A DNA stretch of 64,000 bases from NCBI GenBank assembly GCA_018645475.1, contig JABGWU010000235.1, positions 29,801 through 93,800 on the forward strand, in the 5' to 3' direction. The stretch comes from Opitutia bacterium (GTDB lineage: Bacteria > Verrucomicrobiota > Verrucomicrobiia > Opitutales > Seribacteraceae). Shown here one piece after another: positions 54,919 to 63,640 of this stretch. Under the pieces are notes generated by a model, which was given only the letters and a program-made list of their open reading frames with translations, was not told the DNA's origin and ran no database searches. The position numbers and the translations under genes are program-made. Positions within the stretch are counted from its first letter, which is position 1, and every line of letters begins with the position of its first letter.

Positions 54919-55848
54919 CTAATCCGTTTTCCTTGTGTGTCTCACTCGAGGATCCAATAATCCAGTAAGCAGATCGGCTAGTAGGTTCATCACAACAATA
55001 AGGAAACCGAAGAACAGTGATAATCCCAAGAGAAGGAATTCATCTCTTGTTGTGGCTGCATTTACGAAGTGCTGTCCCATTCCCGGAACTTGAAAGATAG
55101 TTTCTACGATAAATGAACCGCTTATTAGGGCTGCGAAAGCCGGTCCGAGGTAGGCGACTGCTGGTAGGAGTCCTCCTCTCAGCGTATGTTTAATAATTAC
55201 TTTTGAGGGAGAGACACCTTTTGCATGTGCTGTTCGGACGAAGTCCTGAGAAAGGACTTCAAGGATACCTCCTCGAGTAAGGCGGGCTAGATAAGCGGCG
55301 GAAACCAAACCTAAAGTAAAAGAGGGCAGGAGTATGTCCTCGAGGTTTCCCCAACCAGCCACCTTAAGCCCTGGAATATGAGCGGCCACATAGATTTGTA
55401 AGAGTGGGCCGATTGTAAAAGAGGGAATGCAAATGCCCACCATGGCCACGGCCATACAGGCCCAGTCTATCCAGCTATTTTTCCGAACTGCGGAAAGTAC
55501 GCCAATAGGCACTCCAATTCCGATGGCAAAGGCCAAGGCACAGAGGCCCAGTATTAGAGAATTCGGAAACGACTGAGAAATAATATCGATTACTGGCCTT
55601 CCTTTACTGGTGGAAATTCCGAATGAACCCTTCGTTATAATATTTTTAGGATAAGTTATGTATTGTTCCCAAATGGGTTTATCCAGTCCGTAAAGTTTGC
55701 GTATGTTTGCTTTAGTCTCCGCCGATATATTTTTCTCCGATGTGAATGGCTCTCCTGGCATGGCCTTTGCCAGAAAAAAGGTAATCGTATACAATGCGAA
55801 GAGAACAAGTGCACCTTGAAGTATCCGATCGGTTAGAAAGCGTAGCAT
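54919..55848 (-). CDS. Oligopeptide ABC transporter permease (DppB/OppB type)
   Basis: Six-helix permease of 309 residues. 'FLTDRILQGALVLFALYTITFFLAKAMPGEPF' is the standard DppB start. The EAA motif is 'DFVRTAHAKGVSPSKVIIKHTLRG', and the end 'LLADLLTGLLDPRVRHTRK' is typical. Unlike the DppB-type protein encoded at 57924, it has the normal short loop after helix 1 and no EF-hand insertion. It is four bases after the binding-protein stop, so the operon is tightly packed. Confidence 0.94.
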   Translation of the reverse strand: MLRFLTDRILQGALVLFALYTITFFLAKAMPGEPFTSEKNISAETKANIRKLYGLDKPIWEQYITYPKNIITKGSFGISTSKGRPVIDIISQSFPNSLILGLCALAFAIGIGVPIGVLSAVRKNSWIDWACMAVAMVGICIPSFTIGPLLQIYVAAHIPGLKVAGWGNLEDILLPSFTLGLVSAAYLARLTRGGILEVLSQDFVRTAHAKGVSPSKVIIKHTLRGGLLPAVAYLGPAFAALISGSFIVETIFQVPGMGQHFVNAATTRDEFLLLGLSLFFGFLIVVMNLLADLLTGLLDPRVRHTRKTD

Positions 55849-55852
55849 AAGA

Positions 55853-57700
55853 TTAGTCTTTTCTATTTTCTAAATCCGGTTGCAAGCGTAGATACTTGTA
55901 CGGATGATTATCGAGAAGTAGTGGGTTCCACCCCTTTACATCGGGGTGGAGAAGATAATTTCGGGTATACCAATACACGGGTAGTATTGGACGCTCCTTG
56001 AGAAAAAGTGCCTCGGCTTGGGCGAGCAGTTCGTACCGTTTGGTTGCTTCTCCAGTTTGAGCAGCCATGCCCAGGATGTTCTCAAATTCTTCGTTGTGCC
56101 AACCAGTTCGGTTATTTCCTACGCCTTTCATCCACATATCAAGAAAAGTAAGAGGATCCATGTAATCACCAATCCAACCACCTGCAGCCAAGTCATAATC
56201 TTTTTCGAACATTGCAGTAATGTAAGAAGTCCACTCCATTTGTTTGATCTTAATCGTCGCTCCGAGATGCTTCTTCCACATAGCCTGTAATGCCTCAGCA
56301 GTAACTTTGGAAGATTCTTTATCCGTGGTCAGAAATTCAATATCTGGTAATCCTTTCCCACCCGGGTACCCCGCATCGGCCAACAACTTACGGGCAAGTT
56401 TCGGATTAAAAGTCACGGTGTCAGAGGCAGGATAATTGCCAAAAGGGGGAACCAAGCCACTCGCAGGCTTCTGCCCACCTTTAAGAACATTTTCGATGAG
56501 TGATTTTTGGTTGAGTGCGTAAGAGAAAGCAAGACGTACACGCGGGTCGGTAAAAGGTTTATTGTTCACATTGGTTCTGATGAAGTAAGTACCAAGATAA
56601 AGCTCGCTACGGACATGTTGGGGATATTTTTTTCGGGAGTATTCTATTAGTTCGGAAGCAATGCTGTAGGTCACATGCATCTGACCATCGAAATACATCC
56701 GGTCCTCGGTGTAAAGATTGCCGATAGGAAGGAATCGAATACCGTTGATTCCCACATTATCCCTGTCCCAATATTGGTTATTTCGACTTACTTCAATGTG
56801 GTCATTGAATCTCCATGATTTTAGGACGAAAGCCCCGTTTCCAACAATGTTTTCCGGCTTCGTCCATTTTGTGAATCGTTCTCCGATATTACCGTGTTTC
56901 AAAACAACATGCTTTGGTACTGGGTACCATGTGTAGTGTTTGGTTATTTCGGGTAAAAAAGGGATAGGAGAATTGAGTTTAATTTTTAAGGTGTGCTTAT
57001 CGGGGGCAGTGGCACCAAAGTCAATGAGTTCCCAAAGGTCTTTTAATTCATCTTTTTTCAATTCTCCCCGTTCTTTTTTTTCAAAATTCAGATTTTTCAT
57101 GATGAGGGAGCGACGGACTGAAGGAGAAATATTTTTTGGCCATTTAAAAAGAGATGGGTCTTCCAGAAGATTTTTCAAATTACTAAGGCTTAATTTGTCT
57201 AACCCAATAAAATTGAAGGAATTTTCCTCCGCTTTTTCTTCCGGGCCGAAGTCCACATTTTTAAGGGTAGCCCACCAATCCTCGGTAAAGTTGGCGTCTT
57301 TACGGAAAAGCAGGTAGGTGCGTTGAGACTTATGATAGAATTCAGCATCTTTAATATAATAAAGCATGAAGGAATAGTCAGAGGCGAGGGCAGGGTTTAG
57401 CAGGCGGCGAAAGGAAAAAAGAAAATCATCCGCTGTAAGAGGTTTTCCATCAGACCATCGGGCATCCTTCCGGAGTTCAAAGATCCATTCATCTGGTCGT
57501 TTCGAGTCAACAGGATACCATTTTTCGGCGACTCCGGGCATGGCAACTCCATCTTTGGAGGGATGGGCTTCGACCAAGCCTTCAAAAAGTGAACGGATGA
57601 TATTGCTTTCAAGAACGCCGCTCACAATATGTGGGTCTAGTCCCTTTGGTTCACCACTATTTCCCATGATCAGGATACCATTACGGGAAGCATCATCCAC
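55853..57700 (-). CDS. Peptide ABC solute-binding lipoprotein (OppA type), start codon unclear
   Basis: Family 5 extracellular solute-binding protein for oligopeptides. Landmarks are 'GEPKGLDPHIVSG', 'KWYPVDSKRPDEWIFELRKDARWSDGKPLTADDFLFSFRRLL' and 'AAGGWIGDYMDPLTFLDMWM'. The ORF opens at GTG 57700, inside the mature protein. In the same frame upstream, bases 57701-57772 encode 'KSLRN', a hydrophobic run 'YFLPVFLCLLAV' and then 'SCGETSS', a clear lipoprotein signal, but no ATG, GTG or TTG is found before it. The start may be non-standard (CTG at 57751 has an AAGGA before it) or a frame error exists. A 50-residue charged insertion lies near 170-220. Confidence 0.85.
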   Translation of the reverse strand: MDDASRNGILIMGNSGEPKGLDPHIVSGVLESNIIRSLFEGLVEAHPSKDGVAMPGVAEKWYPVDSKRPDEWIFELRKDARWSDGKPLTADDFLFSFRRLLNPALASDYSFMLYYIKDAEFYHKSQRTYLLFRKDANFTEDWWATLKNVDFGPEEKAEENSFNFIGLDKLSLSNLKNLLEDPSLFKWPKNISPSVRRSLIMKNLNFEKKERGELKKDELKDLWELIDFGATAPDKHTLKIKLNSPIPFLPEITKHYTWYPVPKHVVLKHGNIGERFTKWTKPENIVGNGAFVLKSWRFNDHIEVSRNNQYWDRDNVGINGIRFLPIGNLYTEDRMYFDGQMHVTYSIASELIEYSRKKYPQHVRSELYLGTYFIRTNVNNKPFTDPRVRLAFSYALNQKSLIENVLKGGQKPASGLVPPFGNYPASDTVTFNPKLARKLLADAGYPGGKGLPDIEFLTTDKESSKVTAEALQAMWKKHLGATIKIKQMEWTSYITAMFEKDYDLAAGGWIGDYMDPLTFLDMWMKGVGNNRTGWHNEEFENILGMAAQTGEATKRYELLAQAEALFLKERPILPVYWYTRNYLLHPDVKGWNPLLLDNHPYKYLRLQPDLENRKD

Positions 57701-57923: not shown

Positions 57924-59348
57924 ATGCGAGAATACTTTATCAGAAGACTTTTGTTGATTCCCCCTACTTTATTCGGAATTAGTGTCTTGGTTTTTACTAT
58001 AACCCGTTTGGCTCCTGGAGGTCCTTTGGAGCAGGCAATGATGCAGATGCAGCAAGTCTCTCAAGAAGGTGGTCGCGGGCAGAGTATCGGTTCGGATCAG
58101 TCACTCTCACAGGATCAACTAGAACAAATGAAACGTTTGTATGGATTTGATAAGCCCCATTGGGAGGCTTATCTCATTTGGCTTGGGGTTATGCCCAGAG
58201 AAACCGAGTTTCGTCAAATACGGTTCTCAAAATTCGAGTATGAAATTTCCGAAAGAGTAAGGATACCCAGTTTTCATATAGCTGAGCTGGATTGGGATGG
58301 TGATGGCTATGTCCAGCGCAGTGAGGTTCCCAAAAACATCTCGCGATATGTGAAATTTGATGAAACCGACCGAAATGACGATGGGGAAATTGATGGTTAC
58401 GAGGCTGAAAGGATCAACCCCTGGATCGAAGGTGCCAGAGAAACGGTTAACTTTCGCAGAGACGATCAAGGTCGAGTTGAGCTTGTTAATGAGCTTGAAC
58501 TCCTTGGAAATTGGAGTGCTCGTATGAGGGACCAGGATAAAGCCACTCAAAAATCGGCACCTATTGCAGAACTTTTTCTGACCCGATACGAAGGAGTTCT
58601 TCAGGGAAACTTTGGCCAGTCGACAAGATATGGAGAATCTGTGCTACAGGTTATTACAGAACGTTTACCAGTTTCCACTTATTTTGGCTTACTTGCTTTT
58701 TTTATCACTTACTTAATTTGTATTCCTTTGGGAGTTTTTAAAGCTGTCCGACACAATCAGTTGTCCGATGATCTTACATCGGTCTTAATCTTTGTGGGCT
58801 ATGCGGTTCCAGGATATGCCTTGGGTTCATTATTACTTCTTTTTCTGTCTGTGAGTCTAGATCTTCTTCCTATGGGTGGCTTGGTTAGCGATGGCTTTGA
58901 GGAACTAAGCCTATGGGGCAAATTCTCAGATTTGATCGCTCATACAATACAACCTTTATGCTGCTATTTAATAGGTGGTTTTGCTTTCGTGACCATGCTG
59001 ATGAAAAATCATTTGATGGATAATTTGTCTGCAGATTATGTTCGTACGGCAATGGCCAAGGGAGTGTCATTTAAAAATGCAGTTCGCAAGCATGCCTTGA
59101 GAAATTCTTTGGTTCCACTTGCGACAAATGTGGGTCATCAAGTTACGCTATTTGTTACCGGATCTTTTCTAATTGAAACCATTTTTGATATAGATGGTTT
59201 TGGTTTATTGGGCTTCAATTCTGTAATTGACCGAGATTACCCGGTTGTCATGGGCATCCTTACACTCTCCGCAACACTCATGCTTCTTGGCAATATCCTT
59301 TCGGATGCCTTGGTCGCACTGGTTGATCCACGCGTACGCTTCGAATAA
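57924..59348 (+). CDS. DppB-type peptide permease with two EF-hand loops
   Basis: ABC permease of 474 residues, about 150 longer than normal DppB/OppB. The first helix region 'REYFIRRLLLIPPTLFGISVLVFTITRLAPGGP' is typical, and the EAA motif is 'DYVRTAMAKGVSFKNAVRKHALRN'. The enlarged loop after helix 1 (about residues 35-235), expected to be periplasmic, carries two calcium-type EF-hand loops: residues 123-134 ('DWDGDGYVQRSE') and 149-160 ('DRNDDGEIDGYE'), each with acidic ligands at 1, 3, 5, 9 and 12 or close substitutes. Calcium may affect docking of the binding protein or substrate. Divergent from the other peptide importer. Confidence 0.92.
   Translation: MREYFIRRLLLIPPTLFGISVLVFTITRLAPGGPLEQAMMQMQQVSQEGGRGQSIGSDQSLSQDQLEQMKRLYGFDKPHWEAYLIWLGVMPRETEFRQIRFSKFEYEISERVRIPSFHIAELDWDGDGYVQRSEVPKNISRYVKFDETDRNDDGEIDGYEAERINPWIEGARETVNFRRDDQGRVELVNELELLGNWSARMRDQDKATQKSAPIAELFLTRYEGVLQGNFGQSTRYGESVLQVITERLPVSTYFGLLAFFITYLICIPLGVFKAVRHNQLSDDLTSVLIFVGYAVPGYALGSLLLLFLSVSLDLLPMGGLVSDGFEELSLWGKFSDLIAHTIQPLCCYLIGGFAFVTMLMKNHLMDNLSADYVRTAMAKGVSFKNAVRKHALRNSLVPLATNVGHQVTLFVTGSFLIETIFDIDGFGLLGFNSVIDRDYPVVMGILTLSATLMLLGNILSDALVALVDPRVRFE
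58290..58403 (+). other. Paired EF-hand calcium-loop coding segment in a permease
   Basis: Codons for two 12-residue EF-hand loops 14 residues apart. Both keep Asp at 1, Asp or Asn at 3, Asp at 5, Gly at 6, a hydrophobic residue at 8 and Glu at 12, the canonical pattern. They lie in the predicted periplasmic loop of the DppB-type permease. Confidence 0.85.
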
Positions 59349-59353
59349 TCAAA

Positions 59354-60424
59354 ATGTTTCAACTGAACCCACTGACCCGCAAGAAGCTTCGACGATTCCG
59401 CTCGATCAAGCGGGGTTACTGGTCATTTTTGATTCTAGTATTTCTTTATTTATTGAGTATAGCCGGCGAGTTATTTGTTAGTAATCGTGCCTTGATTGTG
59501 TCGTACAAAGATGAGAATTTTTTTCCTACATATGGAGAGCAAATGAGTGGCAAGGATTTTGGTTTGGACTATGATTATGAAGTTGATTACCGCGAATTAA
59601 AAAAGAAATTTGCCAGCGAGAATTCCGATGATTGGGTACTGCTTCCGATTGTACCTTTCGGCCCTTACGAAATGGATTATTTCGAGGAGAATGCCACGGG
59701 TTTTTCTCCTCCAAGTTTTGAAAGAGGACATTTTTGTGGAACAGATAAGACCGAGCGGGATGTCTTGGCGCGCTTACTTTATGGTTTCCGAATCGCGATG
59801 ACTTTTGCTATGGGTTACCTAGTGCTTACTTATTTCATTGCCATTTCCGCAGGTAGTTTCATGGGATATCTGGGTGGAAAGAGTGATATGCTGGGTCTTC
59901 GATTTGTCGAAATCTGGGCAAATGTACCTTTTCTTTACATGGTAATTATTTTGGTCTCTGTCATGCCAAGCGGGTGGGGAGTTGGTTGGCAGGTTTCCTC
60001 GCTCTTAATTATTATGGTCATGTTTTCATGGACTGGCATGACATATTACATACGAGCTTCAGTGTATAGGGAAAAAGCAAGAGATTACATCGCTGCCGCA
60101 AGGGTAATCGGAGCGGGGCCATTTCGAATTATTTTTAAGCATATACTACCTAATGTGGTTTCCACCTTGGTTACTTTTGCACCTTTTACGATAGCGGCAG
60201 CGATTTCCTCCATAACTGCACTTGATTTTCTTGGATATGGCCTGCCACCACCCACCCCAAGCTGGGGTGAGCTTTTGAAACAGGGGGTGAGCAACCTGAG
60301 AACTGCCCCCTGGATTGTCATTTCCACGGTCACGGTTCTGGTGTGTACTTTAACTCTTGTGACTTTTGTGGGTGAAGCGATTAGAGAAGCTTTTGACCCT
60401 AAGAAATTTTCCACTTACGAATGA
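59354..60424 (+). CDS. DppC-type peptide permease
   Basis: Permease partner of 356 residues, five bases after the previous stop. The first helix is 'YWSFLILVFLYLLSIAGELFV'. A periplasmic segment of about 85 residues with 'FCGTDKTERDVLARLLYGFRIAMTFAMG' follows, then five further helices, EAA motif 'DYIAAARVIGAGPFRIIFKHILPN', and 'DFLGYGLPPPTPSWGELLKQG'. The 'NRALIVSYKDENFFPTYGEQ' and the long first loop are typical of YejE-like permeases, so this importer is closest to the Yej type (peptides, microcin C). Confidence 0.93.
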   Translation: MFQLNPLTRKKLRRFRSIKRGYWSFLILVFLYLLSIAGELFVSNRALIVSYKDENFFPTYGEQMSGKDFGLDYDYEVDYRELKKKFASENSDDWVLLPIVPFGPYEMDYFEENATGFSPPSFERGHFCGTDKTERDVLARLLYGFRIAMTFAMGYLVLTYFIAISAGSFMGYLGGKSDMLGLRFVEIWANVPFLYMVIILVSVMPSGWGVGWQVSSLLIIMVMFSWTGMTYYIRASVYREKARDYIAAARVIGAGPFRIIFKHILPNVVSTLVTFAPFTIAAAISSITALDFLGYGLPPPTPSWGELLKQGVSNLRTAPWIVISTVTVLVCTLTLVTFVGEAIREAFDPKKFSTYE

Positions 60425-60425
60425 T

Positions 60426-62621
60426 ATGAAAAAAGCAAATTATCTGAATCTCTTATTGTTTATCTTAATAAATTTATTTTTTACGAGTTGCGATAACCCA
60501 AAACTTAAACCGCCGCGCGAGGATGATAATTCCGATCGAAAGGAAATGGGTGCAAATAACAGAAATATAGATCGGGAGTTTGCCCGTGAGTTGGCAAGGG
60601 AGTTTGGTAGGGAATTCGCCATCGAATTTGCCCGACAAATGAAAGGTTCTTCGAATAAAGTGAATATGGATTTTGCCATGGAGCTGAATTCCACGGAATC
60701 TCCTTCAGGCTTAACTGATGGGCAAGGTAAGCCTCATGCTCTGCTTGCTCATTGCTCAGAGGATGTTCTGGATTTTTATCGGAAGCACTCCGATTGTTTT
60801 TCAATTTCTTCTATGGATGAAATCCCTCAGGGTTTGATTTGGCAGGACGCGAGTGAAGGGAAGGAATTTTCTTCCTCGAAAGCAAAGAAAGGCGGGACTT
60901 GGCAAGTCTACACCAATGACTTTCCTCGTACACTCCGTACTATTGGCCCGGATGCCAATGGTGCATTCCGTTCTTACCTGCTTGATTACAATGTGATTAG
61001 CCTAGTCGAAGCACATCCCAATTCGGATAGTTATTATCCCGGTTTAGCTAAGTCTTGGGCTGTTGGGAAGGATGGAAGAACGGTATATTTTCGCTTGGAC
61101 CCCAATGCCCGTTACAGTGACGGAGAAAAAGTAAAAGTTTCTGACTTCTTTTTCTTCTTTTATTTTATGAGAAGCAAACATATCCAGGCACCTTGGTACA
61201 ATGATTTTTATGGGAAAGATAAATTTCAAAAGGTCACTATTTATGACAAGGAAACTCTTTCGATCACTTTTTACAAAGCAAAGCCGGATATCATTGAAAG
61301 AGTAGCTATTCGGGCAAAACCTGAACACTTTTATGAAGAATTGGATGGTGAATTTCTAAGCAAATATCAGTGGATCCCTGAACCTACTACAGGTGCCTAT
61401 GCCGCTTTGCCTGAAAATGTGGATAAGGGTAAGTCTATTACTTTGGTTAGACAGAAAGATTGGTGGGCGGATCAAAAGAGATTTTTTCGCTACCGATATA
61501 ATCCCGAAAAAATAAAAGTGAGTGTTGTTAGGGATCACAATAAGGCGTTCGAGATTTTTCTAAAAGGAGGACTAGATATGTTCGGATTGGCCAAGACTGA
61601 ATTTTGGTATGACAAGCTTCCTAATGATCATAAATCGGTGCAGAATGGGTATCTTTCGAAGGTGACTTTTTTTAATCAAACACCGCCACCATCTTATGCT
61701 CTACGAATCAATTCCCAGAAACCACCCTTTGACGATTTAAATGTTCGGATTGGTTTTCATCATGCGATGAATTTTGACTTGGTAATCAAGAAAATTTTCA
61801 GGAGTGATTTTGTTCGAATGAATACAGCTGCTGACGGTTATGGCGGTCGATCCCATCCAACATTGAAAGCGAGAGAGTTTTCGGTTGAACAAGCATTGGA
61901 ATATTTTGCAAAAGCCGATTTCAAGAAAAGGGGTGGTGATGGAATATTAATAAATTCTGCAGGCGAAAGGCTTTCCATTGAATTACTTACCGGCTACAAA
62001 AGATACGAGGATGTTCTCGTTGTGCTTAAGGAACAGGCTAAAAAAGCTGGACTCGAAATTAAACTAAAAGTTTTGGAACAAACGGCTGCATGGAAGGCAG
62101 CCAAGGAAAAAAATCATCAGGTTATTTTTTCGGCGTTTAATTCTTTTGTGGAACTCTTTCCAAGGTTTTGGGAGCCTTTTCATTCGGATAATGCGTATGA
62201 AGAGGAAGGAGATTCGAAATTCAATGAGGATGGTTCACTGAAAGCTAATCTGACAACCAAGGTAAATACCAATAATTACAGTCAAACGGCGGTAAGGGAT
62301 ATTGATCATTTGATCAATCAATACCGAAATGAAGAAAATTTGGATCGAATCACTGAAATGTCTCATCAATTAAGTCAAATGATTCATAATCATGCCGTTT
62401 GGGTACCTGCCTGGAAGAAGCCATGGTTAAGACTTGGACACTGGAACTGGATTAAGTTTCCTGAAGATTGGGGACCTAAAGAGACCAGAGAGTATGAGGA
62501 ATTTCAAGTCTTTTGGATAGATGAGCCGGAAAAGGATAAAATCCTTGAAGCGATGGCAAAAGATGAGCCTTTTTCAGAAAAACCTACTGTGCGAAATTAC
62601 GAGAAATATAAATCGAACTGA
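60426..62621 (+). CDS. Peptide ABC solute-binding lipoprotein with EFAR repeats (YejA-like)
   Basis: Family 5 solute-binding lipoprotein of 731 residues. The preferred ATG at 60426 gives '[22 protein letters not shown]', a clear lipobox signal; the ORF track start at 60366 lies within the permease gene. After the Cys come five tandem tetrapeptides ([20 protein letters not shown]) forming a charged helix. The binding domain has '[22 protein letters not shown]', '[23 protein letters not shown]' and '[20 protein letters not shown]', matching YejA-type proteins more than OppA. It delivers peptides to the EF-hand permease complex. Confidence 0.9.
60576..60635 (+). repeat. Five tandem 12-base units (tetrapeptide EFAR-type repeat)
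   Basis: Five in-frame 12-base units code for [16 protein letters not shown] and EFAR, diverged at the DNA level. They follow the lipidated Cys by about 30 residues and predict a charged helical stalk. Confidence 0.85.
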
Positions 62622-62641: not shown

Positions 62642-63640
62642 ATGATCGAAAATAACCAGAATGCACCCTTACTTGAGATTAAGGATCTTTCTGTCCGATT
62701 CAAAACAGATGAGGGAGATGTGGAAGCATTGGACAAAGTCAGTTTCGAGATTCAGGCTGGGCAAACTGTTGGGGTAGTCGGTGAGTCTGGTTGTGGGAAA
62801 AGTGTCACTGCTTATTCGATCATGCGACTGCTGCCCAGACCGACGGGTAAAATTACTCACGGCAGCATTTTCTTTAAGGGCAAAAACATTCTTGATCTGA
62901 GTACCGATGCTATGCGAGATATTCGTGGCAATGAGATCGGAATGATTTTTCAGGAACCGATGAACGCTCTGAATCCTGTGCAAAAAATTGGTAAGCAAGT
63001 GAGCGAGGTTTTTCATTTGCATGATGCAAATGGGAACCATCAAGCATGGTCTAGGTCAATCGAGATGCTTAAAGCGGTCGGGATACCTTCACCGGAGGAT
63101 CGGATGCATGAATATCCTCATCAGTTATCTGGAGGTATGAGGCAAAGGGTGGTTATTGCAATGGCTTTGGCTTGCAAGCCAAAGTTAATTATAGCTGACG
63201 AACCTACCACTGCGTTGGATGTGACTGTGCAGGCACAAATTTTGGACCTTTTACAAAACTTACAAAAGGAAACGGGTTGTTCCATTCTGCTAATCACTCA
63301 TGATTTAGGCGTGATTGCAGAAACTTGTGATGAAGTATGTGTAATGTACGCAGGAAGAATGGTGGAGCGGGCCAAGACGGTTGATCTTTTTGCTCACCCT
63401 ACGCATGCTTACACTCGGGGGCTTCTTTCTTCCATCCCTCGTCTCGATGGCGTTCCGAAAACCAAACTCGTTGCGATCGAGGGGATGGTCCCCAGCCTCT
63501 CCGAACTTAAACCCGGTTGCCGTTTCGCTCCCCGGAGTGGATTGGACCATTCGCAAGAAATGCTTGAGCAGAGACCGCCTTATTTGGAAATCTCGCCCAG
63601 CCATTGGGTGGAGGCCTGTCCCGTTTGCTTCAATCCATGA
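62642..63640 (+). CDS. Oligopeptide ABC ATPase (DppD/OppD type)
   Basis: Peptide-importer ATPase of 332 residues. Walker A '[15 protein letters not shown]', Q-loop '[18 protein letters not shown]', signature '[15 protein letters not shown]', Walker B '[12 protein letters not shown]', H-loop 'LITHDLG'. The C-terminal peptide-family region has 'GCRFAPRS' and ends '[11 protein letters not shown]' with a Cys pair, as in OppD/DppD proteins that bind an iron-sulfur cluster or metal there. Separate from its partner, unlike the fused ATPase of the neighbouring importer. Its stop overlaps the next gene start (ATGA). Confidence 0.94.

Follow-up and report, generated by a model that had tools for sequence, protein, structure and literature searches.

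A conserved EF-hand pair in the periplasmic insert of a YejB-like permease: a possible docking site for a tethered binding protein

Why should the membrane permease of an ABC importer for peptides carry two EF-hand loops, and what might they do there? The question arises from the window, a stretch of 64,000 nucleotides from an Opitutia bacterium that runs to the end of its contig and belongs to a genome that is 83% complete. The first-pass annotation had described a DppB-type permease with a pair of EF-hands in a long loop after its first helix, and had proposed that external calcium either gates peptide uptake or stabilizes docking of the substrate-binding lipoprotein. The permease gene is the first of a Yej operon that lies divergent from an adjacent Opp importer:

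57924..59348, + strand: YejB-type permease with an EF-hand-bearing insert, 474 residues (BPD_transp_1, PF00528, E 6.9e-33)
59354..60424, + strand: YejE-type partner permease (NF011596, E 1.2e-75), in which the EF pattern is absent
60426..62621, + strand: YejA-like substrate-binding lipoprotein (SBP_bac_5, PF00496, E 6e-44)
62642..63640, + strand: OppD-like ATPase subunit with a single nucleotide-binding domain (PF00005, oligo_HPY)
54919..55848, - strand: OppB of the neighbouring divergent importer, 309 residues, the insert-free contrast

The gene order YejB, YejE, substrate-binding protein (SBP), ATPase is that of the YejB subfamily, and the permease has the BPD_transp_1 core with a coupling (EAA) loop and six transmembrane (TM) helices by which this subfamily is recognized. 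Its top NCBIfam model is YejB (NF011712), with 245 bits under a cut-off of 445 bits, so that the protein is better called YejB-like than YejB sensu stricto; the ATPase scores 368 bits with NF007010, under the 575-bit cut-off of that model. What stands of the DppB-type assignment is thus the permease core and the match to the DppB fold (8z1y, top Foldseek match, E 1.6e-10; E. coli DppB and OppB are the nearest solved relatives), while the family label gives way to YejB-like. The contrast with the neighbouring importer holds: OppB retains an intact BPD_transp_1_N domain, and its TM1-TM2 loop is only 71 residues long and free of the insertion. The OppA of the same importer (55853-57700, - strand) seemingly contains an extra charged stretch of ~100 residues (around 120-226), which the NCBIfam OppA models skip.

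Hydropathy places TM1 of the YejB-like permease at residues 9-27 and TM2 at residues 254-272, leaving a loop of ~210-225 residues, close to the ~200 first described. Two regions can be distinguished within it:

58017..58154, + strand: region matching the DppB scoop motif, approximately residues 32-77 (alignment to DppB 8z1v; boundaries approximate)
58188..58559, + strand: periplasmic insert, residues 89-212, a predicted beta-domain split by the EF pair; absent from loci L031 and L040-L044 and from the OppB of the window

Compared with insert-free YejB relatives, the ~124 residues of the insert, of which the EF pair takes only ~50, lie between the post-scoop helix and the segment running to TM2, and the scoop-equivalent region upstream is uninterrupted. 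AlphaFold2 (AF2) predicts strands at residues 92-100, 107-113, 172-179, 185-187, 197-201 and 214-221, which would form a small beta-domain, its strands 2 and 3 flanking the EF pair; the mean pLDDT of the pair is 80-85 in the full model and ~90 in a model of the insert. By DSSP, short predicted helices flank both EF loops and two-residue strands occur at 130-131 and 155-156; in the insert model, these short strands in both loops resemble those of EF lobes. A Foldseek comparison of the beta-domain with known folds returned nothing under E 0.3, and hhalign found no kinship between the insert and the inserts of other YejB types. Two further EF-type permeases, L032:206-1861 (genome G076) and L076:3704-5425, have a second insertion of ~85-90 residues in the TM3-TM4 loop, from which the window protein is free.

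The TM1-TM2 region of DppABCDF lies in the periplasm, and its scoop motif (DppB residues 32-62) enters the cleft of DppA (PMC12136057). Because of this homology, the EF pair would be expected to face the periplasm, near the docked binding protein. Cytoplasmic placement of the loop is ruled out by homology to the solved DppB and OppB together with hydropathy; one TM helix of the window protein (P0001) escaped a simple hydropathy scan, so that the topology argument rests on DppB.

Translation and an alignment of 24 homologues of the permease (68-100% identity) recover both canonical loops at exactly the residues first reported:

58290..58325, + strand: EF-hand loop 1, DWDGDGYVQRSE, residues 123-134; D1, D/N3, D5, G6, Y7 and E12 in 24/24 homologues
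58368..58403, + strand: EF-hand loop 2, DRNDDGEIDGYE, residues 149-160; D1, N/D3, D/N5, D9 and E12 in 24/24 homologues

Homologues lacking the acidic ligands would have marked the pattern as accidental, and the opposite is seen: in both loops, every aligned sequence has D, N or E at positions 1, 3, 5 and 12. Gly6 is present in 24/24 homologues in loop 1 and in 21/24 in loop 2. The ligand columns are conserved above the remaining insert (mean majority identity 0.93 versus 0.64, permutation p ~0.001), the codons at invariant ligands vary only silently (GAT/GAC, GAA/GAG), and the non-silent variation consists of permitted D/N exchanges at positions 3 and 5. The ligands are also kept in the partial homologues of G010 and G008 and in the divergent ones of G076 and JAAZZB010000049.1. 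A degenerate motif might be suspected from the whole-protein search, in which the Pfam EF-hand models match the permease below their cut-offs only (best score for the window protein 19.7 bits, under a 25-bit cut-off); with the insert alone as query, 23 of 24 members match EF-hand_1, EF-hand_5 and EF-hand_6, with a best E of ~2e-7. When the insert composition was shuffled, 0.085% of trials yielded one strict EF loop and 0/20,000 yielded two, which together with the ligand conservation rules out a chance pattern, and the fact that the 24 homologues come from separate assemblies and single-cell genomes also refutes misassembly. That the motif is degenerate, accidental or misassembled and binds no metal is therefore barely credible. 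The permease carries a genuine, conserved EF-hand pair, for which metal binding is predicted.

The pair should bind two Ca2+, as judged from its ligands. A different metal is conceivable, since the closest PDB sequence match of the insert is lanmodulin (profile E 6e-6), whose EF-hands are likewise closely spaced, and the 14 residues between the loops come near lanmodulin's 12-13, unlike the usual 25 (PMC11845868). However, Pro is missing at loop position 2 (W124 is invariant in loop 1; position 150 varies without Pro), a search of the 83% complete genome returned no lanthanide-type alcohol dehydrogenase over the cut-off, and closely spaced loops are frequent among ordinary EF proteins of the order (L110-L114). 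These three points leave the case for lanthanides weak, and it is very unlikely that they, and not calcium, occupy the sites.

Within the window's family, 26 genomes have the EF type, and two further cases are G076 (family f18) and the outside record JAAZZB010000049.1; the carriers are named Opitutales, Opitutia or Verrucomicrobia and appear to be marine, judging from their isolate names, many of which are those of marine collections. A sample of 388 genomes across the phylum had the EF type in none of the 387 others. Among 373 genomes sampled from the order, the insert is matched over its full length only in the window's family and in G076; in G058 and in three f19 genomes the match covers its C-terminal part alone, and the other five weak matches cover the EF part alone, in loci that hold non-permease EF proteins. 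When the insert is left out and the tree is built from the permease core, every EF row falls into a single supported clade together with G058, which is nested on fully supported branches between the G076/JAAZZB010000049.1 pair and the remaining EF rows. The beta-domain is still present in G058 (hhalign probability 98.6, E 7e-16), which is devoid of the EF pair. The simplest reading is that this lineage lost the pair, the alternative being two independent gains at the same place. Other Opitutales proteins (L110-L114) contain short-spaced EF pairs, 24 residues from loop to loop, and proteins of this kind are a plausible source of the permease pair.

In other genomes of this genus and family, another Yej cassette, whose EF-less insert is unrelated, occupies the same place next to the Opp importer (loci L081-L085, L094 and L095). 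Relative to the window, its YejB and SBP are 45% and 37% identical, versus 76-87% for the adjacent OppA and OppB (L081, L085), and its YejE has ~540 residues, with low similarity outside the core, versus 356 in the window. In some genomes it is the Opp cassette that diverged instead (L052: OppA 43%, OppB 47%, YejB 86%). The Opp and Yej importers thus seem to have been exchanged independently of each other. Elsewhere in the order, permease matches lie in frames of ~740-830 residues (G056, G060, G063, G075, G078, G089) and ~1120-1130 residues (G064, G081), so that other permeases may contain larger insertions or fusions.

Seawater contains ~10 mM Ca2+. At this concentration the sites should be saturated, which argues against the proposal that calcium gates uptake. 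A gate or sensor through which changes in periplasmic Ca2+ toggle peptide import via the EF pair would fit the completeness and conservation of both loops, as well as the position of the insert next to the scoop region, which handles substrate transfer in DppB. Yet seawater calcium is not only high but steady, and the G058 lineage lost the EF pair and kept the transporter; such a gate is improbable. A search of the open-access literature found no paper on a calcium-gated Yej or Dpp importer.

Sites that should stay loaded in seawater favour a docking lobe over a switch, and a candidate partner is found in the lipoprotein of the same operon:

60570..60641, + strand: conserved tether helix of the lipoprotein, in 25/25 EF-type loci and 0/19 EF-less loci

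The stretch sits in the N-terminal tether between lipid anchor and binding fold, conserved amid an otherwise variable linker, and is unique in the genome. Its consensus ends EfArQ, with a hydrophobic residue at about every fourth position. From this sequence pattern we infer that it is helical; its helical moment at 100 degrees is no more amphipathic than that of shuffles, the period of the pattern being 4 residues. Upstream, the signal peptide, as read from the sequence, ends LFFTSC, with the lipobox Cys codon at 60489. The residue after the lipidated Cys (60489-60497 in the window) is D or E in 22/24 parsed EF-type loci and rarely acidic in EF-less ones. In E. coli, Asp after the lipidated Cys favours retention in the inner membrane; such retention of the lipoprotein would hold its tether close to the permease.

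Docking is suggested because the EF pair occurs only together with the tether helix in the partner lipoprotein: the helix is present at each of the 25 EF-type loci where the lipoprotein is readable and at none of the 19 EF-less loci, and G058 has neither feature. Helices are common ligands of EF lobes. The Fisher test for the association gives 7e-13, which is far too optimistic owing to relatedness; on the tree the association comes down to about two joint events, one gain and one loss, and this weakens the case for docking. For the loss, the G058 branch makes up 3.1% of the clade length, and the rough chance that a random single helix loss would fall there is ~0.03.

The model that we tentatively favour, while putting it at somewhat less than even, is that a constitutively calcium-loaded EF lobe in the YejB insert docks the tether helix of the lipoprotein. 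Specifically, a Yej-type importer would have gained a periplasmic accessory domain, composed of the beta-domain and the EF pair, in the TM1-TM2 loop of YejB. The pair would bind two Ca2+ and remain permanently loaded at marine calcium levels, and the N-terminal tether helix could then dock on the loaded lobe, which would keep the binding protein beside the scoop motif and the entrance of the permease. As such, the docking half of the first proposal gains a specific correlate in the co-occurrence, with the contact itself conjectural. The target of the helix might instead be the beta-domain, the membrane or a different SBP region, and EF-less Yej importers, which work without either element, count against docking.

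Nearly as likely, and the main rival, is pure structural stabilization, in which two Ca2+ staple and rigidify the loop of the periplasmic beta-domain without any part in docking or regulation, the helix being an independent feature of the cassette. Canonical sites that are permanently loaded at ~10 mM external Ca2+ are what it predicts, extracytoplasmic DxDxDG loops frequently stabilize folds (PMC3123361), and the loss of the pair in G058 with retention of the beta-domain fits a detachable element. A stabilizer alone, however, predicts neither the strict co-occurrence of EF pair and helix nor their joint absence in G058. The docking model can be sharpened into calcium-dependent capture, by a calmodulin-like lobe of the permease, of the tether helix of its own SBP, a mode of coupling that would be undescribed before; we consider this rather unlikely.

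The strict pairing of EF lobe and helix amounts to a concrete and testable claim on what holds a tethered binding protein to its translocator. Natural controls are offered by G058, the relative without the EF pair, and by the EF-less cassettes that related genomes carry at this locus. In ABC importers, calcium sites are known from the binding proteins; a search of the open-access literature turned up no account of a canonical EF-hand pair within the permease.

Among known systems, YejABEF, which imports microcin C in E. coli and muropeptides in Rhizobiales, comes closest: it is the best NCBIfam match, its operon has the same order, and the alignment of the C-terminal permease core spans residues 212-474. 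The window type departs from it in scoring 245 bits under the 445-bit cut-off, in the 124-residue insert with its EF pair, in a lipoprotein SBP with a long tether, and in single-domain ATPases where YejABEF has the fused YejF. E. coli DppB (8z1y) shares the permease fold and the scoop in the periplasmic TM1-TM2 region, but has neither the post-scoop insert nor a metal site there. MalF of the maltose importer (type I) also bears a large folded periplasmic insertion, the P2 domain, which lies against the binding protein (PMC8134467); it occupies another loop and is free of EF-hands, and no homology is claimed. Lanmodulin and L110-L114 resemble the insert, whose profile matches them, in their 12-residue loops and short inter-loop helix, but are soluble or secreted, whereas the window pair sits in a membrane permease. 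Finally, in the ABC importers of AlgQ2, Smon0123 and FusA, the binding protein has an EF-hand-like calcium site, and that of AlgQ2 contacts its transporter (PMC5717064), which provides a precedent; this site is single and atypical, whereas in the window a canonical pair sits within the permease.
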